From: Pseudomonadota bacterium
GTDB taxonomy: Bacteria; Pseudomonadota; Alphaproteobacteria; UBA1280; RI-95
Direction of reading: 5' to 3'
Assembly (NCBI GenBank): GCA_016125375.1
Contig: WGLU01000005.1
Coordinates: 62,001 to 126,000 of the forward strand
Length of the DNA stretch: 64,000 nt
The translations under genes and the position numbers were made by a program. Below the pieces are notes generated by a model that had not been told where the DNA came from, did no database searches, and saw only the letters and a program-made list of their open reading frames with translations. Positions 25,625 to 49,195 of the stretch are shown here, piece after piece. Each line of letters begins with the position of its first letter. Positions within the stretch are counted from its first letter, which is position 1.

Positions 25625-27181
25625 CTATTCCAGCGCCAGCTCGATGCTTTCTTCCGTGCTGGGTTGCTTGCGTTTGTGCGGGTTTTGCAACAGCAGGACC
25701 ATCGGCATAATGGCCAGTACCACCCACATCATGAAGGCAAAATCGTTCAGGTAGCCGATGGTGGCGGCCTGCCGGGTAATCTCGCCATTGACGGCCATCA
25801 GCACGGTAGACATACCACCGCTGCCGATACTCTGGGGCATGGCGCTCTGGATGAGGGCCGTGTTGTAAGGTGTGATGTGCTCGCTCAGGTACGCATGGTT
25901 GGTTTGCATGCTGCTGCTGAGCAGGGTAGTAACCAGTGACACACCGATACTGCTGCCGAGGTTACGGACAAGGCTGAACAGGCTGGTGGCCTCGGTCCGC
26001 AGTTTAGGGGCCAGTGTGGCAAAGGCAATGGTGCTGAGCGGCACAAAGATAAAGCCGAGGCCAAGCCCCTGAATAATCCCGGTCTGCACAATCAGGTGCG
26101 TGGGCACGAAGGTGCTGAAACGGGCCATCTCCCACAGGGAAATAACAATCAGGACGAGGCCGAGGAAGATGAGTTTGCGGGCATCCACCTTGCCGGAAAG
26201 TTTGCCGACAATCATCATGGCGACCATGGTGCCGCCGCCGCGCGGGGCCATCAGCAGGCCAACGTCCACGACCGGGTAGCCCATCAGGTTTTGCAGGTAC
26301 GGGGGGAGGAGGGCCATGGTGGCCAGCAGAATAATCCCGACGAAAAAGATAAAGACCAGCCCGGTGACAAAGTTCCGGTCCACAAACAGCTCCGGGCTCA
26401 GGAACGGGTGCGCGGCAGTGCGGCTGTGGACCACGTACATCCAGAAGGCGCTCAGACCCACGCCGGTGTAAACCAGCAATTCTTTGGCGGTGAACCAGTC
26501 CACCTGCTCCCCACGGTCAAGGATGAGCTGCAGCGTGGCAATACTCAATGCCAGCATGGCAAAGCCAAAGCGGTCGAAGGGACGTTTTTCGAGGTCGGTC
26601 TCGGGCAGGAAGGCCGAGCAACCGATAAAGGAGATAATCCCTACCGGCAGGTTGATGTAGAACACCCAGCGCCAGTTGTAATACTCGGTCAGGTAGCCGC
26701 CCAGTGTAGGGCCCAAAATCGGCCCGAGCATAATACCCACGCCCCACATGGCCATGGCAGCACCGTGGCGTTCCTTGGGGTTGATGTCCAGCAGGGTGGA
26801 CTGGGACAGGGGCACCAATGAGGCGCCGAAGACACCCTGCAACAGGCGGAAGGCGACCATCTCTTCAATCGATGTCGCCAGCCCGCACAGGACGGATGTA
26901 AGGGTAAAGCCTGCGATAGCGGTCAGGAAAATCTTCTTGCGGCCAAACCGGCCGGCCAGCCAGCCTGTTGGCGGTGTCATCACCGCCGCCGCCACAATAT
27001 AGGATGTCAGCACCCAGGTAATCTGGTCCTGCGTTGCCGACAGGCTGCCCTGCATATGGGGCAGGGCCACGTTGGCAATGGTGGTATCCAGCACCTGCAT
27101 GATGGTGGCCAGCATGATGAACAGGGTAATCATCCCCCTGTTCAGGGCATCCGGCTGTGCAGTGGCAGTGGCGGCGTTCAT
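25625..27181 (-). CDS. emrB: MFS multidrug efflux permease EmrB (DHA2 family, 14 TM)
   Basis: 518 residues; DHA2-family drug:proton antiporter. Family motifs are the start of TM1 with MQVLDTTIANVALPHMQGSL (motif D1), TGWLAGRFGRKK (motif A) near 76-87, and GPILGPTLGGYLTEYYNWRW (motif C), with a long 14-TM layout. It exports hydrophobic compounds together with the EmrA adaptor and an outer-membrane channel. Its start is 3 bases after the emrA stop. Confidence 0.92.
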   Translation of the reverse strand: MNAATATAQPDALNRGMITLFIMLATIMQVLDTTIANVALPHMQGSLSATQDQITWVLTSYIVAAAVMTPPTGWLAGRFGRKKIFLTAIAGFTLTSVLCGLATSIEEMVAFRLLQGVFGASLVPLSQSTLLDINPKERHGAAMAMWGVGIMLGPILGPTLGGYLTEYYNWRWVFYINLPVGIISFIGCSAFLPETDLEKRPFDRFGFAMLALSIATLQLILDRGEQVDWFTAKELLVYTGVGLSAFWMYVVHSRTAAHPFLSPELFVDRNFVTGLVFIFFVGIILLATMALLPPYLQNLMGYPVVDVGLLMAPRGGGTMVAMMIVGKLSGKVDARKLIFLGLVLIVISLWEMARFSTFVPTHLIVQTGIIQGLGLGFIFVPLSTIAFATLAPKLRTEATSLFSLVRNLGSSIGVSLVTTLLSSSMQTNHAYLSEHITPYNTALIQSAMPQSIGSGGMSTVLMAVNGEITRQAATIGYLNDFAFMMWVVLAIMPMVLLLQNPHKRKQPSTEESIELALE

Positions 27182-27184: not shown

Positions 27185-28219
27185 TTAGCTCTTGGCGCCG
27201 AACCAGCGGGCCATGCGGGTGTGGTTGGTGTCGACGGTGATGTTGGCACTCATGCCCGCAGCAAGCGGCGGCAGGGGCTGGTTCTTGTCAAACTCCAGCC
27301 GCACCATAACGCGTTGGACCACTTTGACCCAGTTGCCCGTGGCGTTTTGTGGCGGCAGGACGGAGAACTCCGCCCCTGTTGCCGGCGTAATACTGACCAC
27401 TTTGGCAGGCCATGACGTGCCACCGTAGGTATCGATTTCAATTTCGGCATCCTGTCCGGCCACCATGTGGGTGAGGTCGGTTTCCTTAAAATTGGCCTCT
27501 ACCCATGCGGTATTGTCGGCAACGATGCTGAACAGCGGCACGCCCGCGGCAACATACTCGCCCGGTTGCATCTTCACGTTGGCGGTTGTACCGCTATAGG
27601 GAGCAACGACTTCGGTCCGCTTCAGGTTCAGGCGGGCTTTCTCAAGCTCGGCCAGCGCAACCTTGTAACGGGGGTGCTCTTCGGTTGCAATATCAGGATT
27701 ATTGTCCAGCTGTGCCAGTGTGGCTGCCAGCGCAAATCGGGCGGCATCATGCTCTTTCTGGGCGTTCTGCAAGTTGTGGAAAATCTCGTCAGCCTGCGAG
27801 GCCGCAACTGTGTGCGCTTTCAACAAAGCCTGATGGCGGTCATTCTCGCGCTTCCAGTACTTGATGCTGTCCTCGGTCTTGGCGACTTCGGCCTGCTTCT
27901 GTTTGTAGTCGGCGCGCAGGCTCTCGATTTCGGTGCGGATGTTGGCCAATTGAGCCTCTGCCTGGCTCACGGCAATCTGGAACGGTTCGGGGTCTATATG
28001 AAAGAGGACTGTCCCTTTTTCCACATGGGTGTTGTCCTTGGCTTCCACGTCCAGCGTTTTGCCGGAAATCTCGGCCGCGATGGATACCTTGTCGGTTTTG
28101 ACATAGGCATTGTCGGTCGAGATATAGCGGTCGCCATCCAGATAAAGGTACCCGCCCACCAGCAGAATCGTGGCCGGTCCCGCCAGCATCAGGCGCATAT
28201 GTTTGGGGTTTTTAGGCAT
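27185..28219 (-). CDS. emrA: EmrA-type membrane fusion protein
   Basis: 344 residues with an N-terminal TM anchor (about 10-27, LMLAGPATILLVGGYLYLDG), a DNAYVKTDKVSIAAEISG barrel start typical of EmrA/HlyD, a coiled coil from about 80 to 190, and a second lipoyl half with VVAPYSGTTANVKMQPGEYV and the DTNHTRMARWF end. It bridges EmrB to an outer-membrane channel. It overlaps the marR stop by 8 bases. Confidence 0.92.
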   Translation of the reverse strand: MPKNPKHMRLMLAGPATILLVGGYLYLDGDRYISTDNAYVKTDKVSIAAEISGKTLDVEAKDNTHVEKGTVLFHIDPEPFQIAVSQAEAQLANIRTEIESLRADYKQKQAEVAKTEDSIKYWKRENDRHQALLKAHTVAASQADEIFHNLQNAQKEHDAARFALAATLAQLDNNPDIATEEHPRYKVALAELEKARLNLKRTEVVAPYSGTTANVKMQPGEYVAAGVPLFSIVADNTAWVEANFKETDLTHMVAGQDAEIEIDTYGGTSWPAKVVSITPATGAEFSVLPPQNATGNWVKVVQRVMVRLEFDKNQPLPPLAAGMSANITVDTNHTRMARWFGAKS

Positions 28220-28682
28220 TGTCGGTTGCTTTCAGTACGGATTTGTTGCACATGTTGGCCCGCATTTGCAGGAGCCAGGCTTTTAATTGATCCTGTTCGC
28301 TCTGGGGCATGCCGTCGGTCGCTTTGGCGATGACACCTTTGCCGATATCGCGCATGCGGGTAATAACGGGGTTGACCTTCTCGGTCAGGAAGAGTTGCTT
28401 GGCGCGCCGGTCGGTAGGGTCGGGGCGGCGTTCCACCCAGCCGTCTGCCTCCAGCTTATCCAGCAGGCGGGCGAGGGTGATGGGCTGAACCTCCAGAATA
28501 TCTGCCAGTTCGTTCTGGCGCAGTCCCTGACGGAAGAGCAGGTTGGCCAGAACTGTCCATTGGGCGCGTGTCAGGCCGATTTCCTGTGCGCGGCGGTCAA
28601 ACTCGCGCCGGATCATCCGGGTGACGTCATTCATGATAAAACCGAGGCTCTGGTTGGGATCGTTTTTCATCACATCGCTCAC
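28212..28682 (-). CDS. MarR-family transcriptional regulator
   Basis: 156 residues (GTG start at 28682; ATG at 28670 is an alternative). Winged-helix MarR fold: LTRAQWTVLANLLFRQGLRQNELADILEVQPITLARLLDKLEADGWVERRPDPTDRRAK covers the recognition helix and wing (DRRAK). As first gene of marR-emrA-emrB it is the likely autoregulated repressor, relieved by a small-molecule substrate of the pump. A candidate operator is at 28732-28747. Confidence 0.9.
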   Translation of the reverse strand: MSDVMKNDPNQSLGFIMNDVTRMIRREFDRRAQEIGLTRAQWTVLANLLFRQGLRQNELADILEVQPITLARLLDKLEADGWVERRPDPTDRRAKQLFLTEKVNPVITRMRDIGKGVIAKATDGMPQSEQDQLKAWLLQMRANMCNKSVLKATDNA

Positions 28683-28731
28683 TTTTTTAGTTCATTGCTT
28701 TATCTGTCAATTATATGCAAACCCTACATAT

Positions 28732-28747
28732 AATAAGTAAGCTTATT
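28732..28747 (-). promoter_or_regulatory. Candidate MarR operator in the emr leader
   Basis: Perfect inverted repeat AATAAG-N4-CTTATT, 50 bases upstream of marR. It lies between a TTGACT (28761-28756) and a TATTAT (28735-28730) that are 20 bases apart, longer than ideal. Confidence 0.4.
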
Positions 28748-28810
28748 AACTCATAAGTCAAGTCGCTTTGTGCAGGCGCGGTATGGCATATATGCCCCAG
28801 TCACAGGGTC

Positions 28811-28856
28811 ACTGTAGTCCTCTTTTACTGCCCTGTCTATACTGGACCGTATAGTA
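28811..28856 (-). promoter_or_regulatory. TACTnnACnGTnnAGTA operator and conserved downstream box, emr side
   Basis: The dyad TACTATACGGTCCAGTA lies at 28856-28840. It overlaps a TATAGA -10 box and is followed by GGACTACAGT at 28820-28811. The same arrangement, in register, precedes the RND operon at 43315-43360 (39 identities over the 50 aligned bases 28860-28811 and 43311-43360). Transcription would lead to marR-emrA-emrB about 130 bases on. Confidence 0.65.
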
Positions 28857-28890
28857 TAATCATGTTTTTTTGTCTGGCTGTATCGGCACA

Positions 28891-28922
28891 AAAGAAAAGC
28901 CCCCTCCGGTAGGAAAGGGCTT
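28891..28922 (-). terminator. Terminator of the helical-repeat gene
   Basis: Minus strand: 11-bp stem AAGCCCTTTCC/GGAGGGGGCTT with G-U pairs, then TTCTTTT. Confidence 0.7.
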
Positions 28923-28941
28923 GTTGTTGGAGGCGTGTTGC

Positions 28942-29916
28942 TCAGTTGGTTTCGGTCGAAACCTGCGGCATGGTATTGGTCAGGAAACTGTATAAATCGC
29001 CACCGCTGCTGCTGCCACTGTTGAGCTGCCCAAGCAGGCCCTGAGCGTTCTGATCGGTGCTTTGTCCCCCCCCTTTGCCAGCGAGTAAACTCAGGAATGT
29101 GGCTGTATTGTTGGCGGTGGTGGTGGCAAGGTAATTTTTCATGGACGATTGCCCGGCTCCCTGGAATACATCACCCAACTGGGCGAGCAATTTGTTCGCT
29201 TTGGTCTGTTCGTCGTCGGTCAGTTCCTTGAAAGGTTTAGCCTTGCCATACTGGTCGAAAGTTGCGTCGATACTGCGGGCAATCTGCACGGCGTAATCCT
29301 GCTGGTCTTTGGAAAGGCTACCATCTGCACTGTCGATGATATTCTGGAGTGCCGTCAGGCCGTCAATCACCTGCCTCTGCTGTTCAGCGGGCAGGCTGGC
29401 AATGGTGTGGCTGGCGCGGGCATTGTCGGTATCCAGCAGGGTATCCAATTGGCCGATGAGGTCGTTAATCTGGGCGGTCTGTTCATCGTTCGGCTGGCCG
29501 TCGCCGATAGAGGTGTAGATATCCTGTAATTGGGTCAGCAGGCTGCCTGCATTTGCGTGCCCGTTATCGGAAAGGGAAAGGTAGGCCTCGGATGTGGGAA
29601 TCGTGGACGTGCCATAAATCTCGTCCAGCTGGCTGGTCAGTTGCAGGACCTGATACTGCTCGGCTTGCGTCATTTTGCGACCGCCGGCCACGTTGTAGAT
29701 AACATCCAGCTGGTCAGCCATGCTGCTGAGGCGGGTGAGGGCCTTCTGGGCATCGGGGGACAGGTTGACCGTGTCGCCGCCCCAGGTTCCTGTCTGCTCC
29801 TGCCCGGTGGTTTTGTTGTAGGTTTTGCCGCCAATGGTGATGGTGCCATCATCGCCCGAGCTGTTAATGCGTGTCTGGATATAGCTTTGCAGGCTGTTAC
29901 TGATAGAGCTGATCAT
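28942..29916 (-). CDS. Unknown protein with tandem helical repeats
   Basis: 324 residues from ATG at 29916 (GAAGG 7 bases upstream; an in-frame TTG at 29931 is not needed). No signal peptide or TM helix. After a Thr/Gly-rich N-terminus (about 20-50) come roughly five copies of a loose 35-45-residue unit ending in LxxQLDxIY-like strings: LTSQLDEIYG, LLTQLQDIYTS, LIGQLDTLLD, LTALQNIIDS and LLAQLGDVFQ. Acidic loops such as SADGSLSKDQQ lie between them. The C-terminus is Gly/Ser-rich. I do not recognise the family. It diverges from the MacA-like operon. Confidence 0.65.
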   Translation of the reverse strand: MISSISNSLQSYIQTRINSSGDDGTITIGGKTYNKTTGQEQTGTWGGDTVNLSPDAQKALTRLSSMADQLDVIYNVAGGRKMTQAEQYQVLQLTSQLDEIYGTSTIPTSEAYLSLSDNGHANAGSLLTQLQDIYTSIGDGQPNDEQTAQINDLIGQLDTLLDTDNARASHTIASLPAEQQRQVIDGLTALQNIIDSADGSLSKDQQDYAVQIARSIDATFDQYGKAKPFKELTDDEQTKANKLLAQLGDVFQGAGQSSMKNYLATTTANNTATFLSLLAGKGGGQSTDQNAQGLLGQLNSGSSSGGDLYSFLTNTMPQVSTETN

Positions 29917-29948
29917 GGCTGTCGCCTTCAATCGTTATTTTGTCTCAC

Positions 29949-29963
29949 ATGTGCTGCGCACAT
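29949..29963. promoter_or_regulatory. ATGTGC-N3-GCACAT palindrome in a divergent promoter region
   Basis: Perfect inverted repeat between the helical-repeat gene (start 29916) and the exporter operon (start 30069). Its core TGTGC-N3-GCACA equals that at 25571-25583. Confidence 0.45.
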
Positions 29964-30068
29964 ATATGCAAGGGCTGTGCCAGTAAATAATAGTCGGCGT
30001 GGAATCTGGGGTTTGCTATAGTGGGCCGGAAAAACAAAACCATGATTTACCTGCCGGGGAGGCCTCCT

Positions 30069-31064
30069 ATGAATAAACCTGTCAGCGCCCTTGTTCTGGT
30101 CATTGCCGCCGCTGGTGCCGGTTGGTGGGTGCTTGGCAACGGTTCTGCTCTTCAGGTAGCCGTGCCTGTACACGGCCCTGCGGTCGAGGCTGTTTATGCA
30201 ACAGGAACGGTGGAATCCACCGTGATGTATCCGGTAGCGCCCCGCGTGAGTGGTCGGCTGGTGGCCCTGATGGCGGACGAGCGCGATACGGTGACGACCG
30301 GACAGGCACTGGCACGGCTGGAATCTGCAGAGGCGGCGGCGAACCTTGAACAATTGCGCGCTAAAGAAGCCTATGCCGCTGTTGCCTTCAAGCGGGCGAA
30401 AGGTCTGCTGGCGGAAAACACCGCCTCCCGCGCGACGTACGACAACGCCGAGGCCGACCTGAAAGCCGCCCGCGCCGCCCGCGAGGCTGCCGAGGCGCAA
30501 CTCAGCTATACCGAGCTGACCGCGCCGCAGGACGCCACGGTGATTTACCGCGACGGCGAGGTGGGGCAACTGATTGCCGCCAACCAGACGGTGTTCTGGC
30601 TGGCCTCCGGCGGGCAGCTGCGCCTGAGCGCGCAGGTGGACGAGGAAGATATTGCCCGCGTGAAAGCGGGGCAGGAGGTTCTGGTGCGTGCCGATGCCTT
30701 CGGCAGCAAGGTTTTTAAGGGCACGGTGGACAGCATTACCCCCAAAGGTGACCCGGTGGCACGGAGCTTCCGCGTGCGTATTGGCTTGCCGGAAGACACG
30801 CCCCTGCAAATCGGCATGACGGCGGAAGTGAACATCATCCTGCGCGAGGCTGATGACGCGCTGCTCATCCCCACCAGCGCCGTGCGTGACGGTGCGGTAT
30901 GGGCGGTGACCGACGGCAAACTGCACCTGCAACCCGTTGCCACGGGCGCCGTTGGCGCCAGCCAGACCGAGGTGCTGGACGGGCTGGGTGCAGATACGCA
31001 GGTGGTTGTGCACCCCACGGCTGCTTTGAAAGAAGGGAAGCGCGTGCGCGTGCGGATGCCCTGA
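30069..31064 (+). CDS. HlyD/MacA-type periplasmic adaptor
   Basis: 331 residues from ATG at 30069 with GGAGG 7 bases upstream. N-terminal anchor (about 5-23), TGTVESTVMYPVAPRVSGRL barrel start, short coiled coil (about 85-150), LSYTELTAPQDATVIYRDGEVGQ lipoyl half, and the C-terminal VRIGLPEDTPLQIGMTAEVNI beta-barrel. It connects the FtsX-like permease to the outer membrane in a MacAB/DevBCA-type exporter. It overlaps the permease start by 1 base (TGATG). Confidence 0.88.
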   Translation: MNKPVSALVLVIAAAGAGWWVLGNGSALQVAVPVHGPAVEAVYATGTVESTVMYPVAPRVSGRLVALMADERDTVTTGQALARLESAEAAANLEQLRAKEAYAAVAFKRAKGLLAENTASRATYDNAEADLKAARAAREAAEAQLSYTELTAPQDATVIYRDGEVGQLIAANQTVFWLASGGQLRLSAQVDEEDIARVKAGQEVLVRADAFGSKVFKGTVDSITPKGDPVARSFRVRIGLPEDTPLQIGMTAEVNIILREADDALLIPTSAVRDGAVWAVTDGKLHLQPVATGAVGASQTEVLDGLGADTQVVVHPTAALKEGKRVRVRMP

Positions 31065-32308
31065 TGCCGATGCTTTTGACCATAGCCATCCGCCACCTGC
31101 TGGACCGTAAGCGCCAAAGCGTGGTGTCGCTGATGGGGATTGTGCTGGGGGTGGCGTTTTTCCTGGCCATCGCCTCGCTGATGAAAGGGTCGGAGAATGA
31201 CTTTATCCGCCGCCTTATCGATAATGCGCCCCACATTACCATTCAGGATAACTACCGCGCCCCGCGCGCCCAGCCGCTCTATGCGGTGTACAAATCCGGT
31301 GCGCTGGAGCTGCGTCATGTGACCCCGCTGCCGGAGAATCGCGGCATCCGCGGCTATCACCAACTGCTGGAAGCCCTCAAGACCCGTAAGGGAGTTGAGG
31401 CGTCGCCCCAGCTGACGGGGCAGGGGATTATCAGCTTTGCGGGGCAGGATGTGGGCGTGGCGCTGAGCGGGATGATCCCGGCGGAAATCGAAACCGTCAC
31501 CACCATCAAGAAATACATGATTGAGGGCGAGATTGCCGACCTTTCCGGCAACCCGGACGGCATCATCATCGGCGCGGGACTGTCGCAGAAGTACGGCATC
31601 AATATGGCTGAGACGCTTACCATCACCGCGGGCAGCGGTCAGGTGCGTACCTTCAAGGTGGTGGGGATGTTCCGCACCGGTCGCGCCAGCTATGACGAAA
31701 GTCAGGCGTTTATCGATATTTCCCGCGCGCAGGCGCTCTTCGGGCGGCTGAACCGCGCCAACGGCATCATCATCAAGCTGGCCGACCCCTACAGCGCCCG
31801 CACCATGGCGGCGGAAATCGAGCGCGCCATCGGCTACAAGGCGGTGTCGTGGCAGGAGAGTTCGGAGGATATTCTCAGCACGCTGGTCATCCGCAACATC
31901 ATCATGTACACGGTGGTGGGCGCGGTGCTGCTGGTGGCGGCGTTTGGTATTTATAACGTCATCTCCACAGTCGTGTCGGAAAAACAACGCGACATCGCTA
32001 TCCTCAAAGCAATGGGGTTCGAGGCGGGGGAGATTCAGCAGATCTTCCTGTTTCAGGGGATTATGCTGGGGTTGTGCGGCGTTGCTGCGGGCATTCCGCT
32101 CGGGTGCAGTTTTATGCTGGCCCTCATGCAGGTACAGCTCAAGCCGCCGGGCAGTTCGGAAGTCATTCACATGCCATTGGACTGGGGCTGGCCGCCCTTT
32201 GCCATCGCCGCCGCTTTTGCCATGTCGGCCGCCATGTTTGCCGCCTATATGCCTGCGCGCAAAGCCGCGCGGATTGAACCTGTCGACATTCTGCGGGGTG
32301 GGTTCTGA
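31064..32308 (+). CDS. FtsX/MacB-like ABC permease
   Basis: 414 residues from ATG at 31064. TM1 near residues 22-40 (SLMGIVLGVAFFLAIASLM), a large periplasmic domain to about 280, then three TM helices including NIIMYTVVGAVLLVAAFGIYNVISTVVSEKQRDIAILKAMGFEAGEIQQIFLFQG, the FtsX-family signature. It ends in PARKAARIEPVDILRGGF as LolC/E and MacB permeases do. The operon structure argues for a MacAB/DevBCA-like exporter rather than Lol. It overlaps the ATPase gene by 1 base. Confidence 0.88.
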   Translation: MPMLLTIAIRHLLDRKRQSVVSLMGIVLGVAFFLAIASLMKGSENDFIRRLIDNAPHITIQDNYRAPRAQPLYAVYKSGALELRHVTPLPENRGIRGYHQLLEALKTRKGVEASPQLTGQGIISFAGQDVGVALSGMIPAEIETVTTIKKYMIEGEIADLSGNPDGIIIGAGLSQKYGINMAETLTITAGSGQVRTFKVVGMFRTGRASYDESQAFIDISRAQALFGRLNRANGIIIKLADPYSARTMAAEIERAIGYKAVSWQESSEDILSTLVIRNIIMYTVVGAVLLVAAFGIYNVISTVVSEKQRDIAILKAMGFEAGEIQQIFLFQGIMLGLCGVAAGIPLGCSFMLALMQVQLKPPGSSEVIHMPLDWGWPPFAIAAAFAMSAAMFAAYMPARKAARIEPVDILRGGF

Positions 32309-33021
32309 TGGGTAAGGAAGCCGCCACCATGCCGCTCCTGCGTGCGGAAAACCTGATGCGAACCCTTAGCGGCGAGGTGCCGGTTACGCTGGTGAAAGAC
32401 GCAAGTGTCGAGATTGATGGCGGCGAGTTTGTGGCCATTACCGGGCCTTCCGGCTCCGGCAAGTCGTCTCTGCTGTATCTGCTAGGGTTGCTGGACAGGC
32501 CGACGAACGGCAAACTGTGGGTGAACGGGCAGGATATGGCCCATGTGAGCGAGCATGCCCGCGCCCATATGCGCCTTGCCAATCTGGGGTTTGTGTTCCA
32601 GTTCCACTTTTTGCTGCCGGAGTTTACGGCGCTGGAAAACGTGATGATGCCCATGCAGCGGCTGGGCAAGCTAAGCCCGCAGGACTGTCGCAAGCGGGCG
32701 CTGGCGCTGCTGGAGCAGCTCGGCATTGGCGAGCAGGCCCATAAACGCCCCAAGCAGCTCTCCGGCGGGCAGAGCCAGCGGGTGTCCATCGCGCGGGCGC
32801 TGGCCAACAAGCCGAAGTTGATTCTGGCCGATGAACCGACGGGGAACCTGGACTCGACATCGAGCAAAATGGTGCAGGGGATTTTCAAAAGCCTCGCCCA
32901 CGACGAGGGGTGCACCGTGATTGTGGTCACCCACGAGCCACCGTTTGCCGAACAGGCGGACAGGATTATTCATATCATCGATGGTAAGATCCATTCGGAT
33001 ACGCGGCGTAAAAAAGGATAA
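32308..33021 (+). CDS. ABC ATPase of the MacB/LolD type
   Basis: 237 residues with Walker A GPSGSGKS (about 46-53), Q-loop FQFHFLLPEFTALENVMMP, signature LSGGQSQRVSIARAL, Walker B LILADEPTGNLD and H-loop THEPPF, all intact. LolD/MacB-type nucleotide-binding subunits energise FtsX-like permeases. It completes the adaptor-permease-ATPase operon and lies 5 bases before nrtR, so nrtR may be read with it. Confidence 0.9.
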   Translation: MGKEAATMPLLRAENLMRTLSGEVPVTLVKDASVEIDGGEFVAITGPSGSGKSSLLYLLGLLDRPTNGKLWVNGQDMAHVSEHARAHMRLANLGFVFQFHFLLPEFTALENVMMPMQRLGKLSPQDCRKRALALLEQLGIGEQAHKRPKQLSGGQSQRVSIARALANKPKLILADEPTGNLDSTSSKMVQGIFKSLAHDEGCTVIVVTHEPPFAEQADRIIHIIDGKIHSDTRRKKG

Positions 33022-33026
33022 ACACT

Positions 33027-34034
33027 ATGCGTGATACCCATACCGTAGACGTAGGGCTGACGGCGGTGATTATGGCGGTCAGCGGCGGTGTGGCCAAAGT
33101 GCTGGCCGTGCGCGAAGGGGCGGGGGAGCATGCTCTGCCGTCCGGCCTGTTCGACCCGGCGCAGGACAGGACACTCAACCTCAGCCTGCGGCGCTGGATT
33201 ATGGAGCTGACGGCGCTGGAAGTGGGCTATGTGGAGCAGCTTTACACCTTTGGCAACCAGTACCGCGATGCCCGTGAGCTGGATGTGGGGGCGCGGTTCC
33301 TGTCTATCGGGTATCTGGGCCTTGCGCGGGAGCAACGCATCGGCACCGGTGTACCGGCCGAGTGGCACGATATTTACGATTACCTGCCGTGGGAAGACTG
33401 GCGTGGTGGCCGCCCTGCGGTGCTGGACGCACACATTATGCCGGCGCTGGCCGCATGGGCGGAGGATGCGCTGGACGGTGCGGGCAGGGCGCTGCGCCGT
33501 GGCCGTATTGCCATGACCTTCGGCACCGCCGACGCCATTGACCACGAGAAGGCACTCCAGCGCTTTGAGCTGATGTACGAGGCGGGGCTGCTGCCCGAGG
33601 CGCATCGGGATTATGCGCTGGTGCGCGAAAAATCATCTTCAGTATTTTCTTTTAATAAAAACAAGATAGAAGATATTTACAAAGTTTCACTTGAGGTTGG
33701 CGGCCTGCCGATGAAGATGGACCACCGCCGGATTCTGGCCAGCGCGTTGGAACGGGTGCGGGGCAAAATCAAATACCGTCCGCTGGTGTTCGAGCTGCTG
33801 CCCGCCGCGTTTACGCTGCTGCAATTGCAGAAGGTGGTGGAGGCGCTATCCGGCGTGGCGCTGCACAAGCAGAACTTCCGCCGGTTGATTCAGGCCGAGC
33901 GGCTGGTTGAGGAGACGGGCGAGATGGAAACCACCGCCCGTGGCCGTCCGGCGGCGTTGTTCCGGTTCCGCCCGCAGGTGCTGTCGGAGCGTCCGGCACC
34001 GGGCGTTGGGGTACCAAAAATATCAACGATATAA
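33027..34034 (+). CDS. nrtR: NrtR: Nudix-related repressor of NAD synthesis
   Basis: 335 residues: N-terminal Nudix-like domain (about 1-150: VDVGLTAVIMAVSGGVAKVLAVREG, then LPSGLFDPAQDRTLNLSLRRWIMELTALEVGYVEQLYTFG) and a C-terminal winged helix (about 240-325: FTLLQLQKVVEALSGVALHKQNFRRLI, GRPAALFRF). The classical Nudix box is incomplete, as in NrtR repressors that bind ADP-ribose. It directly precedes nadA with two NrtR-type boxes between. Bases 33631-33690 have only 13 G or C in 60, unlike the flanks; they encode a linker with FSFNKNKIEDIYK. Confidence 0.85.
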   Translation: MRDTHTVDVGLTAVIMAVSGGVAKVLAVREGAGEHALPSGLFDPAQDRTLNLSLRRWIMELTALEVGYVEQLYTFGNQYRDARELDVGARFLSIGYLGLAREQRIGTGVPAEWHDIYDYLPWEDWRGGRPAVLDAHIMPALAAWAEDALDGAGRALRRGRIAMTFGTADAIDHEKALQRFELMYEAGLLPEAHRDYALVREKSSSVFSFNKNKIEDIYKVSLEVGGLPMKMDHRRILASALERVRGKIKYRPLVFELLPAAFTLLQLQKVVEALSGVALHKQNFRRLIQAERLVEETGEMETTARGRPAALFRFRPQVLSERPAPGVGVPKISTI

Positions 34035-34050
34035 GCATGATATAAAGATA

Positions 34051-34080
34051 AATTAAACCGCCGTATGAGGCGGTTTAATT
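34051..34080 (+). terminator. Terminator after nrtR
   Basis: 12-bp perfect stem AATTAAACCGCC/GGCGGTTTAATT with a 6-base loop, followed by TGTTG. It separates nrtR from the nadABC promoter. Confidence 0.7.
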
Positions 34081-34109
34081 TGTTGTGGGGGCTGCTGATA
34101 AATATCCTG

Positions 34110-34161
34110 TTGACATTATGCTCAGGTGGAGTATATATAATATATGCTCATATAGAGCATA
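34110..34161 (+). promoter_or_regulatory. nadABC promoter with two NrtR-type boxes
   Basis: TTGACA (34110-34115) and TATATA (34134-34139) 18 bases apart. Box 1 is TATGCTC-N5-GAGTATA at 34117-34135 (one mismatch) in the spacer. Box 2 is TATGCTC-N5-GAGCATA at 34143-34161 (perfect), centred 26 bases downstream near the start site. This fits repression of NAD synthesis by the adjacent NrtR. Confidence 0.75.
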
Positions 34162-34180
34162 AATAGCGAAAGGAACCGAC

Positions 34181-35227
34181 ATGATCCGCCCCGACCTGAC
34201 CTATACGCCCGAGATCGAAGCCGCCACCGCCGATATCTACGACAAGCTGGAACCCCTGATGCCCGTGCTGGACTGGCCGGAAATCGCGCCGTACATCTAC
34301 CACATCAACCGGCTGAAGAAAGAGCGTAACGCCGTTATTCTGGTGCACAACTACATGACGCCGGACATCTTCCACGGGGTGGCGGACTATGTGGGTGACT
34401 CGCTGGGGCTGGCGCAGAAGGCGACGGAGACAGAGGCTGATGTTATCGTCCAATGCGGGGTGCACTTTATGGCGGAGACCTCCAAAATCCTCAACCCGCA
34501 CAAGACAGTGCTGATTCCCGATATGAAGGCCGGGTGCTCGCTGGCCAGCGGCATTACCGCCGCAGATGTGGAGATGCTGCGGCAAAAATACCCGGGCGTG
34601 CCCGTGGTCACCTACGTGAATACAAGTGCCGAAGTGAAGGCCGCGAGCGACATCTGCTGCACCAGCGGCAACGCGCTGGACGTGGTGGAGAGTCTGGACA
34701 GCGACACGGTGCTGTGCATCCCTGACCAGTATCTGGCCAACTGGATTGCCGGGCAGACGAGCAAGAAAATCCTCACCTGGGCGGGCTCGTGCGAGGTGCA
34801 CGAACGCTTTACCGGCGAGCAACTGCGCGCCTACCGCACCAAATACAGCGGGGACATCACCATCATCGCCCACCCGGAATGCCCGCCGGATGTGCTGGCG
34901 GAGGCTGACTTTGTCGGCTCGACCAGCGGGATGATCGACTATGCCAAGCGCGAGCGCCCCAAGCGGGTGCTGATGGTGACCGAATGTTCGATGAGCGACA
35001 ACGTGGCTGCCGAGGTGCGCGATGTGGAGTTCATCCGCCCCTGCAACCTGTGCCCGCACATGAAGCGCATCACCCTGCCGAAGATTCTGGACGCGCTGCT
35101 CACCCTCTCGCCCGCGGTGGAGGTTGATCCTGAACTGGCCGCCCGTGCCCGCCTGCCGATTGACCGCATGCTGGCGGTCGAGCCGCGCAAGTCGTCCAAA
35201 GTCAGCAAGCTGGCCAAAGCGAGTTAG
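34181..35227 (+). CDS. nadA: Quinolinate synthase NadA
   Basis: 348 residues; 4Fe-4S enzyme condensing iminoaspartate with dihydroxyacetone phosphate to quinolinate. Three-domain repeat with [30 protein letters not shown] near the start. Cys ligands are expected in [18 protein letters not shown] and the C-terminal [15 protein letters not shown] lies 6 bases before the ATG. First gene of nadABC. Confidence 0.95.
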
Positions 35228-35235
35228 GGGAGGGT

Positions 35236-36849
35236 ATGGCAATGGGGACGCAAAACACTTCTGTGGATGTGGTGGTGGTCGGCAGCGGCGCTGCCGGGTT
35301 GTTCACCGCGCTGTCGCTCGCGCCGCTGTCGGTGCTGCTGGTCACAAAAGCGCCGGCGCTGGTCAGCGGCAGTACGGCCTACGCGCAGGGCGGCATGGCC
35401 GCCGTGATGGGCGCGGACGACACACCTGCCGAGCATACCGCCAACACGCTGTTTGCCGGTGCCGGACTGGTGGATAAAGCCGCTGCCGATGTGCTGACCC
35501 ACACCGCGCCGGCGGTGATGCGCCAGCTCATGGATTTAGGCATGGTGTTTGATAAAACGTCTGATGGGGAGCTCTCCCTCGGGCGGGAGGCCGCCCACAC
35601 GAAACGGCGTATCCTCCATGCGGGGGGTGACGCTACGGGGCGGCACCTGAGCGTTGCGCTGGCGGCCTGTGTGGAAAAGGCGCCTCATGTACAAGTGGCG
35701 CTGGCGGCGACTGTCTGGCAGGTGCTGACCGATGAAAACGGCACCGCTGGCGTGCTGATGCACCAGCCGCAGGCCGGTTGGGCACGCGTGGCGTGTCGCC
35801 ATGTGGTGTTGGCCACGGGCGGCGTCGGGCAGCTCTTCAGTCACACCACCAACCCCACCACCGCTACGGCAGACGGCCTGCGGTTGGCCTGGGAGGCGGG
35901 CGCCGCGCTGGAGGATATGGAGTTTGTCCAGTTCCACCCCACCACGCTGGATGTGGCGGCAACGGATGGGCGTCGCCCGCTGTTGACCGAGGCGCTGCGG
36001 GGTGAGGGGGCACATCTGTTGGACGCACAGGGCACGCGCTTTATGCTGGATGTGCACCCGGATGCGGAGCTGGCGCCGCGCGACGTCGTCGCCCGTGCCG
36101 TGTGGGCACGCCGTGCGCAGGGGGCTCAGGTGTTTCTGGACGCCCGGGCGCTGGCGGCCGAAGGGCTGGCGAAAAAGTTCCCCACCGTGTGGGCATTGTG
36201 TGCCGAGCACGGCCTTGACCCTGCCAAAGACCTGCTGCCGATTGCACCGGCCGCCCACTACCATATGGGCGGGGTGAAAACTGACCTTCTGGGGCGTACC
36301 AATGTTGCCGGACTGTGGGCGGTGGGCGAAGTGGCGCGGACGGGGCTCCACGGGGCGAACCGTCTGGCCAGTAACTCGCTGACCGAGTGCCTTGTGTTTG
36401 GCGCCCGCGCAGCGGAAGCGATAAAAGTGGACATTCGCCCGTTCGGGGCGCTCCCCGGCATGCAAGCCCCCGTCTTTGCCCCGCAGAAAGAGGCCACGCC
36501 CCTGCGCGCAGAGCTGCAACAGGTCATGTATGCAGGTTTGGGGCTGGTGCGCGACGGCAAGGGGATGCAGAAGGCGCTGGCGCGGATACAGGCGCTGACG
36601 CGCGCTTATAAGGCTGGCACCCACGACGCGCTGACCGTGGCCGCCCATGCCGAGCTGCAAAGCCTGCTGCTGGCGGCGCGCCTGATGACCGAACAGGCAT
36701 TGAAGCGTACGGAAAGCCGCGGCGGCCATTACCGCAGCGACTACCCCAAGCAAAGTGCAAGCTGGCAGACCAGCATGACCATCCGTAAACCTGAGGAGTA
36801 CGACCATGACCGCACCCGCACCCGCACCCCTGCCACCGCTGTGCTATGA
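35236..36849 (+). CDS. nadB: L-aspartate oxidase NadB
   Basis: 537 residues (ATG 35236; ATG at 35242 is better spaced from GGGGAGGG and would drop two residues). FAD-binding GSGAAG at 16-21, the flavoenzyme segment GSTAYAQGGMAAV, HHxR-type active-site region HTKRRILHAGGDATGRH, and EFVQFHPTTLD as in fumarate-reductase-like oxidases. It makes iminoaspartate for NadA. Its 3' end overlaps nadC by 44 bases. Confidence 0.94.
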   Translation: MAMGTQNTSVDVVVVGSGAAGLFTALSLAPLSVLLVTKAPALVSGSTAYAQGGMAAVMGADDTPAEHTANTLFAGAGLVDKAAADVLTHTAPAVMRQLMDLGMVFDKTSDGELSLGREAAHTKRRILHAGGDATGRHLSVALAACVEKAPHVQVALAATVWQVLTDENGTAGVLMHQPQAGWARVACRHVVLATGGVGQLFSHTTNPTTATADGLRLAWEAGAALEDMEFVQFHPTTLDVAATDGRRPLLTEALRGEGAHLLDAQGTRFMLDVHPDAELAPRDVVARAVWARRAQGAQVFLDARALAAEGLAKKFPTVWALCAEHGLDPAKDLLPIAPAAHYHMGGVKTDLLGRTNVAGLWAVGEVARTGLHGANRLASNSLTECLVFGARAAEAIKVDIRPFGALPGMQAPVFAPQKEATPLRAELQQVMYAGLGLVRDGKGMQKALARIQALTRAYKAGTHDALTVAAHAELQSLLLAARLMTEQALKRTESRGGHYRSDYPKQSASWQTSMTIRKPEEYDHDRTRTRTPATAVL

Positions 36850-37663: not shown

Positions 37664-37733
37664 GAATAATATCTCCGAATACATCTTGTACTAATTAATA
37701 ATATTATAGAAGTGACGTGTAAGGAGAATGACC

Positions 37734-38345: not shown

Positions 38346-38361
38346 ACAAGGGGGGTGTATA

Positions 38362-39237: not shown

Positions 39238-39242
39238 CGTAA

Positions 39243-39268: not shown

Positions 39269-39272
39269 GGTT

Positions 39273-39911: not shown

Positions 39912-39947
39912 GGCGCGCCCTTTCTTAGTCTGATGCGTTATCGATGG

Positions 39948-42407: not shown

Positions 42408-42436
42408 GGTCAGAGAACCTTATCTATCTTATCCGG

Positions 42437-43307: not shown

Positions 43308-43360
43308 TTGACTGTACTGAACGGTCTAGTATAGACAAGTTCATAAAATAGGACTACAGT
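43308..43360 (+). promoter_or_regulatory. Promoter/operator of the RND efflux operon
   Basis: TTGACT (43308-43313), 16-base spacer, TATAGA (43330-43335). The dyad TACTGAACGGTCTAGTA (43315-43331) fills the spacer, and GGACTACAGT lies at 43351-43360. Matching copies precede marR-emrAB at 28811-28856. The dyad form TACTnnACnGTnnAGTA is of the length used by TetR-family repressors; no such gene is in the window. Confidence 0.7.
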
Positions 43361-43409
43361 GTCGCTACATAGTAATGCTGATTTTGCGAAAAGATAAGGT
43401 AATCCGGCG

Positions 43410-44576
43410 ATGATGAACACTCCCCTAAAGAAATATCTGGGCACAGCCCTGCTGGCCACAGTGCTGCTGAGCGGTTGCGGCGGCTCTCAGGAGCAGGCGC
43501 AGCAAGGCGGCATGCCGGTAAAAGTTGCCCCCCCGACCCAGCAGAAGCTGACAGAGTGGGATGAGTTTACAGGCCGTTTTCAGGCCCGCGAGCGTGTGGA
43601 GATTCGTGCCCGTGTGAGCGGTTACCTTGACCAGATCAAGTTCGCCGACGGCCAGATGGTTAAGAAAGACGATGTTCTGTTTGTAATTGACCAGCGACCG
43701 TTCCAGATTGCCCTGGACAGAGCGGAAGCCAGCCTAGACGTTGCCAAAAAGGAATATGACCGGACCAAAAACCTGCGCAAGACCAATGCCGTATCCGAGA
43801 CTGACAAGGACAAGGCATGGCAGGCCTACCGCGAAGCCAAGGCCGCTTACGATGAAGCCAAGCTGAATCTGGAGTTCACCGAGGTAAAATCTCCTATTAG
43901 CGGACGTGCAAGCCGTAACCTTGTAGACGTTGGTAACCTGATTAACGGCGGGGATCTGAATGCCACTCTGCTGACAACGGTAGTGAACATGGATCCGATT
44001 GATTTCTATTTTGAAGTCAGCGAGCGGGACGTCCTCAAATACATGCGCCTTGAGCAGAAGAACGGTGGCGAGAACATTGCGACCGCACGCCCTGCCATGC
44101 TGAAACTGCAGGATGAAAAGGAATATACCCACCGCGGTACCGTAGACTTTGTGGACAACGAGGTCGACCGCAGCACAGGTACGCTCCAGCGCCGCGCTGT
44201 TTTCCAGAATGCGGACGGAACACTGTTGCCCGGCATTTTTGGCCGTATCCGCGTTCCCGGTAGCGAAGAGTATGAAGCCACTCTGGTTCCTGACGAGGTG
44301 ATTGGCACCAACCAGAACCAAAAATTTGTGTACGTTGTGGGTGAGGGGAACACCGTGCAGCCCCGTCCGGTTGTACTGGGCCCCCTGCATGACGGCAATA
44401 TGCGCATCATCCGTAGCGGTCTGACATCCGCCGATCAGGTCATCGTCAGCGGTCTGACCATTCTGCGCCCCGGCATGCCGATTACGCCGATGCCTGCCAA
44501 CCCGCCGCAAGCTGCCGAAGAAGGTGCCGCTGCCGACGGTAACGAACAAACTGTATCCGCCGAAGGGCAGGAGTAA
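43410..44576 (+). CDS. RND efflux periplasmic adaptor lipoprotein (AcrA-like)
   Basis: 388 residues. Lipoprotein signal peptide with LLSGCGG (Cys23). WDEFTGRFQARERVEIRARVSGYLDQIKFADGQMVKKDDVLFVIDQRPFQI is the classical MexE/AcrA barrel and lipoyl start. A short coiled coil (about 95-150), then LEFTEVKSPISGRASRNLVDVGNLI and a C-terminal membrane-proximal domain. Start of a three-gene RND operon, 7 bases before the pump gene. Confidence 0.92.
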   Translation: MMNTPLKKYLGTALLATVLLSGCGGSQEQAQQGGMPVKVAPPTQQKLTEWDEFTGRFQARERVEIRARVSGYLDQIKFADGQMVKKDDVLFVIDQRPFQIALDRAEASLDVAKKEYDRTKNLRKTNAVSETDKDKAWQAYREAKAAYDEAKLNLEFTEVKSPISGRASRNLVDVGNLINGGDLNATLLTTVVNMDPIDFYFEVSERDVLKYMRLEQKNGGENIATARPAMLKLQDEKEYTHRGTVDFVDNEVDRSTGTLQRRAVFQNADGTLLPGIFGRIRVPGSEEYEATLVPDEVIGTNQNQKFVYVVGEGNTVQPRPVVLGPLHDGNMRIIRSGLTSADQVIVSGLTILRPGMPITPMPANPPQAAEEGAAADGNEQTVSAEGQE

Positions 44577-44583: not shown

Positions 44584-47500
44584 ATGAAGTTCTCTCACTT
44601 TTTTATCGACCGCCCGATTTTCGCGACGGTCATCTGGCTGATTACCCTGATTATCGGGGCCATCAGCTTCTACGCCCTGCCGATTGAGCAGTACCCGGGT
44701 GTAACACCGCCAACTGTTGTGGTCAGTGCCTCCTACCCCGGCGCAAGTGCTGACGTGGTGGCCAAAACCGTTGCCACACCGCTGGAGCAGGAAATTAACG
44801 GCGTAGAGAATATGCTCTACATGTCGTCCCAGTCGACCAACGACGGTAACGTGGCGATTACCATTACCTTCAAACTGGGGACCAATCTGGATACCGCACA
44901 GGTGCTGGTACAGAACCGCGTTGCCATTGCCGAAGCCCGCTTGCCGGAAGAGGTACGCCGCCGCGGGGTGACAACCGTTAAAAACTCGCCGGACATGATG
45001 ATGGTTATCAACATGTACTCGCCGGACGGGCGCTACGACCAGACATATATTGCCAACTATGCCACATTGCAGATCAAGGACCGTCTGGCCCGTATTGACG
45101 GTGTGGGTAGTATCCGCGTTTTCGGCGGTAGTGATTACGCCATGCGCATCTGGCTGGATCCGGACAAAATCGCCTCTATGGGCATGACAGCCGGCGACGT
45201 GCTGGGCGCCCTGCGCAGCAAGAACGTGCAGGTAGCATCGGGTGTTCTGGGGCAACAGCCTCTCAAACAGGAAACCGCCTTCGAGTTGAGCGTGCAGACA
45301 CAGGGACGTCTGGTATCGCCAGAGCAGTTTGCCGACGTGGTGGTGAAAGCCTCGCCGGACGGCCGTATCGTCAAACTTAAGGACGTGGGCCGTGTGGAAC
45401 TGGGTGCGGAAAACTATTTCACCCGCGGCTATCTGGGTGACAAAAAGTCCGTTGTACTGCCTATTTTCCAGCGTCCCGGCTCCAACGCGCTGACAACCGC
45501 CGCCGCCGTGCAGGACGAGATGCGTACCATTGCGCAGAACTTCCCTGCCGGGCTGGAGTATAAAATCGTCTATAACCCGACCGAGTTTATTGCGGCCTCC
45601 ATTAAAGCCGTTTACCACACGATTTTTGAAGCCATCGTGCTGGTGGTGCTGGTGATTATGGTGTTCCTGCAAAACTGGCGTGCGGCGATTGTGCCGATTG
45701 TGGCGATTCCGATTTCGCTGATTGGTACGTTTGCCGTTATGGCTGCGCTGGGCTTCTCGCTCAATAACCTGACCCTGTTCGGGTTGGTGCTGTCCATCGG
45801 TATTGTGGTGGACGACGCGATTGTGGTGATTGAGAACATGGAGCGCCTGATGGCCAAAGGCCTTGACCGCGTGAAGGCGGCCAAACAAACCATGGACGAG
45901 GTGGGTGGTGCGCTCGTGGCCATCGGCCTTGTACTTGCGGGTGTGTTCCTGCCGACGCTGTTTATCGACGGTATTTCGGGCCGCTTCTTCCAGCAGTTCG
46001 GGGTGGTGATTTCGGTTGCGACGGTCTTCTCTGTAGCTGTATCGCTGACATTGAGCCCTGCACTGGCCGCGCTGTTGCTGACCTATCACGGTAAGCACAA
46101 AGGTGAGGCAACACCGCCTCTGGGGTTGAATCCGCTGCCGTGGTTCTTCCATAAGTTCAATATCTTTATGGAATCCCTGTCCACCAACTATGGCCGTTTG
46201 ACGGCACGTCTGGTGCGCATGGGTGCCCTGATGATGATTGTGTATGCAGGCCTGATGGGGCTGACGTCACTGGGCTTTAAAGAAGTACCGACCGGGTTTA
46301 TTCCGGCACAGGATCAGGGCTACTTTATTGTGGCTATCCAGCTGCCGCCCGGTGCGTCGCTCGACCGCACCGATGCCGTGGTGCAGGAGGCCGTTCAGCG
46401 CATCCTGAAAGTGGACGGTATCAAGAATGCTGTTGGTTTTGCCGGCTTTAACGGTGCAACCTTTACCAATGCGACCAATGCGGGGGCGATTTTCCCCGTG
46501 CTGGAAGACTTTGACGTGCGTAAAGCCAAGGGCATTACTGCCGAGGCGCTGCTGACCCGCCTGCGTGGCGAAATGGCGCAGATCGATAAAGGTTTCCTGA
46601 TTGTTATCGCCCCGCCACCTGTGCGCGGTATCGGTAACGGCGGCGGCTTTAAGATGATGCTGCAAGACCGTGGCGGTGTAGGTATCGACCAAGTGAACAA
46701 CTCCCTGTGGGCACTGGCTGGCGCTGCCAACCAGTCCGGCGTGGTGCGCTCGGTCTTTACCTTCTTCGAAAACCGCACGCCGCAGGTCTACTTGGACCTC
46801 GACCGTGAACGGACGGAGCGTCTGGGCGTGCCGCTGGACCGCGTTTTTGAAGCGCTGAGCGTATATCTGGGCTCCGCCTACGTGAACGACTTTAACTATC
46901 TGGGCCGTACTTACCGCGTCACGGCGCAGGCCGATGGCGATTACCGGATGACGGCTGATGATATTTCCCGCATCCGGGTGCGTAACGAGCAGGGCAACAT
47001 GGTGCCGCTGGGGACTTTGGCCCAGTTCGAGGACCGTTCCGGCCCGTCGCGTCAGCCGCGCTACAACCTCTACCCCGCAGCAGAGTTGCAGGGTGAGGCT
47101 GCTCCGGGCTTCAGCTCCGGTCAGGCGTTGGCCAAGATGGAAGAGCTGGCCGGGCAGATTCTGCCCCCTGGTGTCGGCTTTGAGTGGACCGAACTGGCGT
47201 TCCAGCAGAAGCAGTCCAGCAACAGTGGCGTAATTGCCTTTGGTCTGGCTGTGGTGTTTGTGTTCCTGTTGCTGGCCGCGTTGTACGAAAGCTGGGTGCT
47301 GCCGCTGTCCATCGTGCTGATTGTGCCGATGTGTCTGCTGTCCGCCATCACGGGCATTTGGCTCGCGAAGATGGATAACAACATCCTGACCCAGATCGGC
47401 CTTGTGGTGCTGATTGGTCTGGCCAGCAAGAACGCCATTTTGATTGTGGAGTTCGCCAAACAACGTCAGGAAGACAACGGCGATAGCCCGTGGACTGCTG

Positions 47501-47763
47501 CCGTAGAGGCCGCCAAGCTGCGTCTGCGCCCGATTCTGATGACATCGTTCGCCTTTATTCTGGGGGTTGTGCCGCTGGTGCTGGCTTCCGGTGCCGGGGC
47601 GGAGATGCGTCAGGCACTGGGTGTTGCTGTATTCAGCGGCATGCTGGGTGTGACGTTCTTCGGTCTTATCTTTACCCCTGTATTTTACGTGCTGTGCCGC
47701 AGACTGGGCAGCATCTTCAACCGCCTGCGCGGAAAGGAGCACAACCATGTTCAGAAAGCCTAA
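44584..47763 (+). CDS. RND multidrug efflux pump, HAE1 family (AcrB/MexF-like)
   Basis: 1059 residues, full length. N-terminus MKFSHFFIDRPIFATVIWLITLIIGAISFYALPIEQYPGVTPPTV is typical of HAE1 pumps. The proton-relay pair Asp410-Asp411 lies in GIVVDDAIVVIENMERLM. DGISGRFFQQFGVVISVATVFS and GLASKNAILIVEFAKQRQE are further signatures. Drug:proton antiport across the inner membrane into an OMF channel. It overlaps the outer-membrane gene by 17 bases. Confidence 0.95.
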   Translation: MKFSHFFIDRPIFATVIWLITLIIGAISFYALPIEQYPGVTPPTVVVSASYPGASADVVAKTVATPLEQEINGVENMLYMSSQSTNDGNVAITITFKLGTNLDTAQVLVQNRVAIAEARLPEEVRRRGVTTVKNSPDMMMVINMYSPDGRYDQTYIANYATLQIKDRLARIDGVGSIRVFGGSDYAMRIWLDPDKIASMGMTAGDVLGALRSKNVQVASGVLGQQPLKQETAFELSVQTQGRLVSPEQFADVVVKASPDGRIVKLKDVGRVELGAENYFTRGYLGDKKSVVLPIFQRPGSNALTTAAAVQDEMRTIAQNFPAGLEYKIVYNPTEFIAASIKAVYHTIFEAIVLVVLVIMVFLQNWRAAIVPIVAIPISLIGTFAVMAALGFSLNNLTLFGLVLSIGIVVDDAIVVIENMERLMAKGLDRVKAAKQTMDEVGGALVAIGLVLAGVFLPTLFIDGISGRFFQQFGVVISVATVFSVAVSLTLSPALAALLLTYHGKHKGEATPPLGLNPLPWFFHKFNIFMESLSTNYGRLTARLVRMGALMMIVYAGLMGLTSLGFKEVPTGFIPAQDQGYFIVAIQLPPGASLDRTDAVVQEAVQRILKVDGIKNAVGFAGFNGATFTNATNAGAIFPVLEDFDVRKAKGITAEALLTRLRGEMAQIDKGFLIVIAPPPVRGIGNGGGFKMMLQDRGGVGIDQVNNSLWALAGAANQSGVVRSVFTFFENRTPQVYLDLDRERTERLGVPLDRVFEALSVYLGSAYVNDFNYLGRTYRVTAQADGDYRMTADDISRIRVRNEQGNMVPLGTLAQFEDRSGPSRQPRYNLYPAAELQGEAAPGFSSGQALAKMEELAGQILPPGVGFEWTELAFQQKQSSNSGVIAFGLAVVFVFLLLAALYESWVLPLSIVLIVPMCLLSAITGIWLAKMDNNILTQIGLVVLIGLASKNAILIVEFAKQRQEDNGDSPWTAAVEAAKLRLRPILMTSFAFILGVVPLVLASGAGAEMRQALGVAVFSGMLGVTFFGLIFTPVFYVLCRRLGSIFNRLRGKEHNHVQKA

Positions 47764-49195
47764 GAACCTTCTGATTCTGACAACTGCCGTTCTACTGTCC
47801 GGCTGCGGCAGTCTGACGGGGCTTATCGGCCGCGTCTATGAGGAGCCGAAGGCACCTGAAATGAGCGAAAGCATTTTGCAGGAGCAAAGTGATGGCCGCT
47901 ATCAGGTTGCAGCTCCTGTTGCCGCATGGTGGGAACAGCTGGGCGATGACCAGCTGACCGAGCTGGTGACCGAAGCGCTGGCAAACAATCTGGATGTAAA
48001 GGTTGCGGTTGCCAATGTTAAGGCTGCCCGCGCCTATGTTCGCGGCCAGAAGTTTGACCGCTACCCGACAGTGACAGCCAGCGGCGGGTATACCCGCGAG
48101 CGCCTGAGCAATGATGGCAGAACCGGCAAACCTGCCGACAGAACCGTATCAAGCTACGATGCGGGTTTTGACGCATTTTGGGAGCTGGACCTGTTCGGAC
48201 GGGTGGAAGAAGGTATTGCCGCCCGCAAAGCCGTCTATGAAGGCAGCGAGGCAGAGCTTGCCAACGTGTATGTGACGGTCGCTGCCGAGGTGGCCCGTAC
48301 TTACACCGAGCTGCGCGGTGCCCAGTACCGCCTCAGCGTGGCGAAACGCAACGCGGAGAATCAGCAGAAGACCTACGACCTGATTACCAATCTGGTAGAA
48401 GGTGGCCGTAGTAGCGACCTGGATATTGCCCGTGCACAGGCACAGCTGGACCAGACGCTTGCTCTGGTTCCGCCGTTGGAAGCGGAAATCAACGCTGCTG
48501 CCAACCGATTGGCCGTGTTGACAGGCAAAACACCTGATGCACTGCGTGGGAATCTGTCGGACGTCAAACCGATTCCGTCCATTCCGGCCCATGTATTGGT
48601 TGGTTCCGCTCAGGACCTGCTGAAAAACCGTCCGGACGTTCGGGTAGCCGAACGTGCACTTGCGACGGCAACAGCAGAATATAACGTCAATGTGGCGGAC
48701 TTCTACCCGACGCTCAGCGTGAGTGGCAGTCTGGGCTTTTTGGCACGGACGGCCAGCAACCTGTTCACCAGTGGTGCAACAACGGCACTTCTGGCACCGG
48801 GTATCAGCTGGTCGGCGTTTGACCTTGGCCGCGTCAAGGCCCGGGTAGACGCGTCCGATGCTGCAACGGATGTGGCGATGGCGAACTTCCAGCAGACGGT
48901 GCTGGAGGCTCTGGAAGAGCTCGACTCCTCCATGGTGCGCTTCTCCCGCGAGGAACAGCGCCGTGCGCGTTTGCTGGGTGCAGCAGAATCAAGCGCCAAA
49001 GCTGCCAAACTGGCGCGCCAACGGTATGAGGCTGGCCGGGATAGCTTCCTTGACTTGCTGGATACCGAACGCCGTCTGCTGGATGCGGAAGATGCGCTTG
49101 CAAGCAGCGAAACACAGGCCGTGCTTGACCTGATAGCCGTGTATAAAGCCCTCGGCGGCGGTTGGCAGGGTGGCAAGGCAGCCCAGCGCCAGTAA
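47747..49195 (+). CDS. Outer-membrane efflux lipoprotein (NodT/OprM family)
   Basis: 482 residues. Lipoprotein signal with LLSGCGS (Cys20). Two OEP repeats of long helices and strands: WWEQLGDDQLTELVTEALANNLDVKVAVANVKAARAY and AQDLLKNRPDVRVAERALATATAEYNVNVADFYPTLS, the NodT-family hallmarks. It provides the outer-membrane channel for the RND pump and could also serve the emrAB and MacA-type exporters, which have no OMF of their own here. Confidence 0.93.
   Translation: MFRKPKNLLILTTAVLLSGCGSLTGLIGRVYEEPKAPEMSESILQEQSDGRYQVAAPVAAWWEQLGDDQLTELVTEALANNLDVKVAVANVKAARAYVRGQKFDRYPTVTASGGYTRERLSNDGRTGKPADRTVSSYDAGFDAFWELDLFGRVEEGIAARKAVYEGSEAELANVYVTVAAEVARTYTELRGAQYRLSVAKRNAENQQKTYDLITNLVEGGRSSDLDIARAQAQLDQTLALVPPLEAEINAAANRLAVLTGKTPDALRGNLSDVKPIPSIPAHVLVGSAQDLLKNRPDVRVAERALATATAEYNVNVADFYPTLSVSGSLGFLARTASNLFTSGATTALLAPGISWSAFDLGRVKARVDASDAATDVAMANFQQTVLEALEELDSSMVRFSREEQRRARLLGAAESSAKAAKLARQRYEAGRDSFLDLLDTERRLLDAEDALASSETQAVLDLIAVYKALGGGWQGGKAAQRQ

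Follow-up and report, generated by a model that had tools for sequence, protein, structure and literature searches.

Two efflux operons preceded by a common element

The window, by which we mean the whole stretch of 64,000 nucleotides analyzed here, contains two multidrug efflux operons: a marR-emrA-emrB operon on the minus strand and, on the plus strand, an RND operon of the MexEF-OprN type (43410–49195). The family assignments listed in Table 1 bear out the genes named in a preliminary description of this DNA, namely MarR, EmrA and EmrB on one side and an RND pump operon on the other. Divergent from the RND efflux operon is a minus-strand row of genes (39273–43207) for MlaC, an HAE3/MMPL-type RND protein and MlaA; the ORF at 50444–53116 contains direct repeats (51635–52790) whose periods are close to 370 bp.

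Table 1. Genes and predicted regulatory features at the two efflux loci
Feature	Position	Strand	Remarks
Copy A of the shared element (putative operator and core promoter)	28810..28862	-	42/53 identical to copy B; upstream of marR-emrA-emrB
Copy B of the shared element	43309..43361	+	Upstream of the RND operon
Dyad TATACTATACGGTCCAGTATA, putative operator of copy A	28838..28858	-	8/10 pairs symmetric; centre at about -44
Dyad TGTACTGAACGGTCTAGTATA, putative operator of copy B	43313..43333	+	7/10 pairs symmetric; centre at about -44
Predicted -35 TAGACA of P1 (marR operon)	28834..28839	-	Promoter scan, consensus match only
Predicted -10 TACAGT of P1, inside decamer GGACTACAGT	28811..28816	-	Promoter scan; predicted start near 28804
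Predicted -35 TAGACA of the RND operon promoter	43332..43337	+	Promoter scan
Predicted -10 TACAGT of the RND operon promoter	43355..43360	+	Promoter scan; predicted start near 43367
Terminator-like hairpin of the preceding gene	28897..28922	-	35 bases upstream of copy A
Dyad TAATAAG-CTTA-CTTATTA (TAATAAGCTTACTTATTA), probable MarR operator at the second promoter, P2	28731..28748	-	TAAGC-nn-GCTTA box with one change
marR-family regulator gene	28212..28682	-	Pfam MarR, 4e-15
emrA-like adaptor gene	27185..28219	-	TIGR00998 EmrA/EmrK family, 6e-69, under the curated cut-off
emrB-like MFS permease gene	25625..27181	-	TIGR00711 efflux_EmrB, 2e-127, over the cut-off
RND periplasmic adaptor gene, MexE/OqxA type	43410..44576	+	NCBIfam MexE, 1e-97, under the equivalog cut-off
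RND permease gene	44584..47763	+	NF000282 RND_permease_1, 1355 bits, over the cut-off
Outer-membrane efflux channel gene, OprN/NodT type	47747..49195	+	TIGR01845, 6e-97, over the cut-off

A copy of one element lies upstream of each operon. The preliminary description reported an ungapped, inverted alignment of 50 bases (28860–28811 on the minus strand with 43311–43360 on the plus strand, 39/50 identical) in front of the two operons; this alignment is right, and the full similarity extends to 53 bp. The borders of the element are abrupt at both ends, and the flanking DNA of the two copies cannot be aligned. The 50-base core is the top inverted pair of that length in the window. In a 64-kb window of the same composition, 5e-5 to 7e-4 such pairs are expected (binomial), and in 12 dinucleotide shuffles of the window the best inverted pair reached at most 36 matches, compared with 39 in the native sequence. 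We scanned the genome (1.98 Mb, 97.7% complete) with consensus patterns, rather than with a weight matrix, for the element and its dyad, and found exactly two copies of the element, both before efflux operons. The same site thus stands above chance before two functionally related operons, as expected of a shared operator.

The two copies, inverted relative to each other and 14.5 kb apart, clearly have a common origin. Two inverted copies at such a distance might also be left by a mobile or interspersed repeat, or the match might have arisen by chance, but both explanations are extremely improbable: the similarity is far above chance, no copy was found in plasmids, and matches in phages are isolated and weak. 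With two genomic copies only, a mobile or interspersed repeat is refuted for the source genome, including the common interspersed repeat that the preliminary description had held against its own reading. A 29-bp segment of Enterobacteria phage 9g (KJ419279.1, 28072–28100) shares 93% identity with a portion of copy A (E 0.004); this match, which lies inside a BPROM-predicted promoter of one phage, is probably due to chance.

Predicted core promoter and dyad

A consensus scan for promoters of the sigma-70 type gave a single candidate per region, identical in the two, TAGACA-17-TACAGT, which agrees with the consensus at 9/12 positions. The scan is weak by itself because chance alone would yield roughly one match of such quality per region (0.7–0.8 expected); what counts for the promoter call is that both hexamers and their spacing coincide with the conserved blocks of copies A and B. 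The decamer GGACTACAGT, identical in the two copies and part of an identical 12-mer (AGGACTACAGTG), is on this basis probably the -10 with its upstream edge. Upstream of copy A, the position of the terminator-like hairpin implies that P1 would start its own transcript.

The preliminary description had instead assigned the -10 to TATAGA, under the dyad, and had placed the decamer in the leader as a conserved box providing a second layer of control. Copy B does contain TTGACT-16-TATAGA, as read from its sequence. However, copy A has GATTAT at the corresponding -35 place, which is no match, TATAGA does not have T as its sixth base, and the decamer supplies TACAGT 17 bp from TAGACA in both copies; TATAGA thus probably overlaps the -35. 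Moreover, a search of 28600–43600 detected no known RNA family or riboswitch (Rfam), and the possible short ORFs downstream of the decamer (3 codons in copy A and 12 in copy B) are not conserved between the copies. Given these results and the reading of the decamer as a -10, we dropped the proposed control layer in the leader, and we consider the whole TATAGA-based arrangement improbable.

In both copies, the predicted -35 is abutted by a dyad of about 21 bp (TATACTnnACnGTnnAGTATA, with one mismatch in the second copy), which overlaps the start of the -35 by 2 bases. The dyad TACTnnACnGTnnAGTA occurs at 28840–28856 and 43315–43331 with 0 mismatches in either copy; when up to 2 mismatches were allowed, 3 matches were obtained, compared with 0.56 expected. 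Operators of the TetR family are palindromes of about 15–25 bp that overlap the core promoter, and the 21-bp dyad at the predicted -35 has these properties. The dyads of copies A and B differ at 4 of 21 bp, and 3 of these 4 differences are located at the 5 positions unpaired in copy A (hypergeometric P ~0.03, hand count). This pattern of substitutions hints at a constraint on symmetry.

The consensus pattern scan found no third convincing dyad site in the genome. Dyad-like sites with 2–3 mismatches, on contigs C9 (141985), C5 (35075) and C7 (226612), were set aside, their counts being no higher than those of controls. A perfect 16-bp palindrome, TAGACTGTACAGTCTA, is present at 226612–226632 of contig C7, between SspA/GST-like and Sir2-like genes, and has some likeness to the shared dyad (3 mismatches).

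The element was absent from 60 relatives, 385 genomes of the class, viral contigs and plasmids, from genome_contigs (exact search, 22 fixed bases), and from 18 genomes chosen mostly for the nearest pump relatives. It was found at none of 80 loci of RND relatives; among relatives of the RND permease with 61–75% identity, none has it upstream. The retention before orthologous operons on which the preliminary description had made its reading depend was therefore not observed, either before these RND relatives or before marR in 21 relatives. The relatives compared all lie outside the same genus and family and are too distant for this absence to be decisive, so that it is compatible with both a neutral copy and a recent regulatory innovation.

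A neutral copy would have come about if a promoter fragment had been duplicated by ectopic recombination and now conferred basal expression only, with a dyad that is coincidental or no longer bound. Its borders would be sharp, as they are here, and the lengths of the matching runs over the 53 bp are those predicted by random divergence of a decaying neutral copy (longest run, P 0.47; summed squares, P 0.29); the lack of conservation in the genomes searched, and of a regulator among the loci examined, also agrees with it. On the other hand, both copies have retained dyad symmetry, the substitutions being mainly at unpaired positions, and both targets are multidrug efflux operons. We regard a neutral copy as unlikely, and the data weakly support selection on the shared element, which probably arose by copying of one promoter with the operator carried along.

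A MarR box at the second promoter and candidate regulators

The marR operon has a second predicted promoter, P2, in which a perfect TATAAT (28715–28710, minus strand) lies downstream of the box at 28748–28731. We searched 385 genomes of the class for EmrA and obtained 21 relatives in which marR could be located beside emrA. In 12 of these 21, a TAAGC-nn-GCTTA box is located shortly before marR (shuffled mean, 0.02), or in 13/22 when the window itself is counted, whereas the shared dyad precedes marR in 0/21. Judging from this motif, the box at P2 is probably MarR's own operator. A second control layer thus probably exists, but at the MarR box upstream of marR and not in the leader. The two counts (0/21 and 12/21) further indicate that the shared element was added to an operon already under the control of MarR.

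Autoregulation is common among MarR proteins, and copy A is followed first by marR, so the MarR protein of the emr operon might be thought to bind the shared dyad and to control both pumps. The same comparison of relatives makes MarR an unlikely ligand of the shared element, which does not have the conserved motif of an operator of the EmrR type; that motif is found at P2 instead, and the RND promoter has no MarR box. Control of both pumps by this MarR is therefore quite unlikely.

The preliminary description had suggested that one unseen regulator, by implication of the TetR class, controls both pumps. A genome-unique common promoter region with a dyad of TetR-operator size favors one regulator; the implied class is not borne out by a TetR gene with the dyad nearby. 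No TetR gene was recognized among the window proteins scanned, which represent part of the window ORFs, and a TetR_N search of the whole genome identified four genes, all on contigs other than that of the window. Two of the encoded proteins have an AefR-like C-terminal domain, TetR_C_7 (contigs C9 and C8), the third gene adjoins another RND operon (C6), and the fourth (C1) is most similar to SlmA, under the cut-off of that model. The shared dyad was found at none of the four TetR loci; an operator site at the regulator's own gene is common, not universal, in this family. In P. fluorescens, AefR, a member of the TetR family, acts as a repressor that binds mexEF-oprN (PMC11915855), and the two TetR_C_7 proteins are therefore the first candidates.

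In the 108500–114500 region of contig C9, the AefR-like gene has LysR, DoxX-like and nitroreductase-like genes as neighbors; a dyad of its own, TGGACT-CACC-AGTCCA, lies just upstream of it. Within the window, genes at 33027–34034 and 34181–37663 encode, in this order, an NrtR-like regulator, NadA, an FAD-binding (nadB-type) protein and NadC. The 21-bp dyad just before nadA, GAGTATATATAATATATGCTC at 34129, is a probable NrtR operator; it is unlike the shared dyad, and NrtR was rejected as a candidate.

Joint control of the two pumps and comparison with known systems

In functional terms, the shared promoter region is most simply explained by one regulator acting on both operons, and we consider it fairly probable that a duplicated, dyad-regulated promoter puts both pumps under one trans-acting regulator. 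The sequences themselves show two copies unique to the genome, with their dyads and neighboring genes, and the MarR box of the relatives; we infer promoter activity, binding and a common regulator, as well as the class of the latter. The 53 bp would represent a regulated core promoter in which the dyad of about 21 bp overlaps a TAGACA -35, itself separated by 17 bp from a TACAGT -10. Copy A would drive marR-emrA-emrB from P1 and copy B the MexEF-OprN-type RND operon. At both promoters the dyad, near -44, would be occupied by a dimeric regulator whose gene lies elsewhere, and the two pumps would thereby be co-regulated. The location of the dyad centre is compatible with repression or activation: a TetR-type repressor might block RNA polymerase at the -35, or a class II activator might assist it at the weak -10. 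Repression is somewhat likelier, given the type of operator. The marR-emrAB operon would additionally be under its own conserved MarR box at P2.

In weighing this reading, we counted in its favor the excess of matches over the shuffled sequences, the restriction of the element to two sites before efflux operons, the identity of the -35, the spacer length and the -10 in both copies, the concentration of the dyad differences at positions unpaired in copy A, the terminator just upstream of copy A, and the AefR precedent together with the two AefR-like TetR proteins of the genome. Counted against it were the lack of a third convincing site, of a regulator gene with the site and of conservation in the genomes searched, a distribution of mismatches that fits a neutral copy, and single promoter calls at chance level.

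More tentatively, we propose that a lineage-specific duplication of the promoter, by way of the 53-bp copy, wired the MarR-controlled MFS pump operon and the MexEF-type RND operon to one common putative regulator. The MFS pump would then have two control inputs, and the two operons would form a minimal efflux regulon. If true, this would be a clean example of regulatory rewiring through promoter copying, in which two structurally unrelated classes of pump are joined in one control circuit and one of them retains its older MarR switch. The 53-bp element would then also be a usable bait for isolating the regulator. The arrangement is of a well-known, ordinary kind, of which this is a new example, with the element found in no other genome searched, and its general interest is moderate.

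Among known systems, the AefR/mexEF-oprN pair of Pseudomonas resembles the present case in that the operon is of the MexEF-OprN type and the two TetR_C_7 proteins are encoded away from the pump, although neither of their genes has the dyad nearby. We know of no emrAB operon that shares AefR control. The EmrR/MprA-type autoregulation of emrAB by MarR has its counterpart here in the marR-emrA-emrB operon, which starts with marR and is preceded by a conserved TAAGC-nn-GCTTA box, whereas the shared element is a separate promoter located farther upstream and absent from relatives. While MarA/SoxS/Rob use a MarA-type box, the shared site described here is palindromic, occurs twice in the genome and would be bound by a putative regulator; as in such multi-pump regulons, one type of site precedes more than one pump operon.
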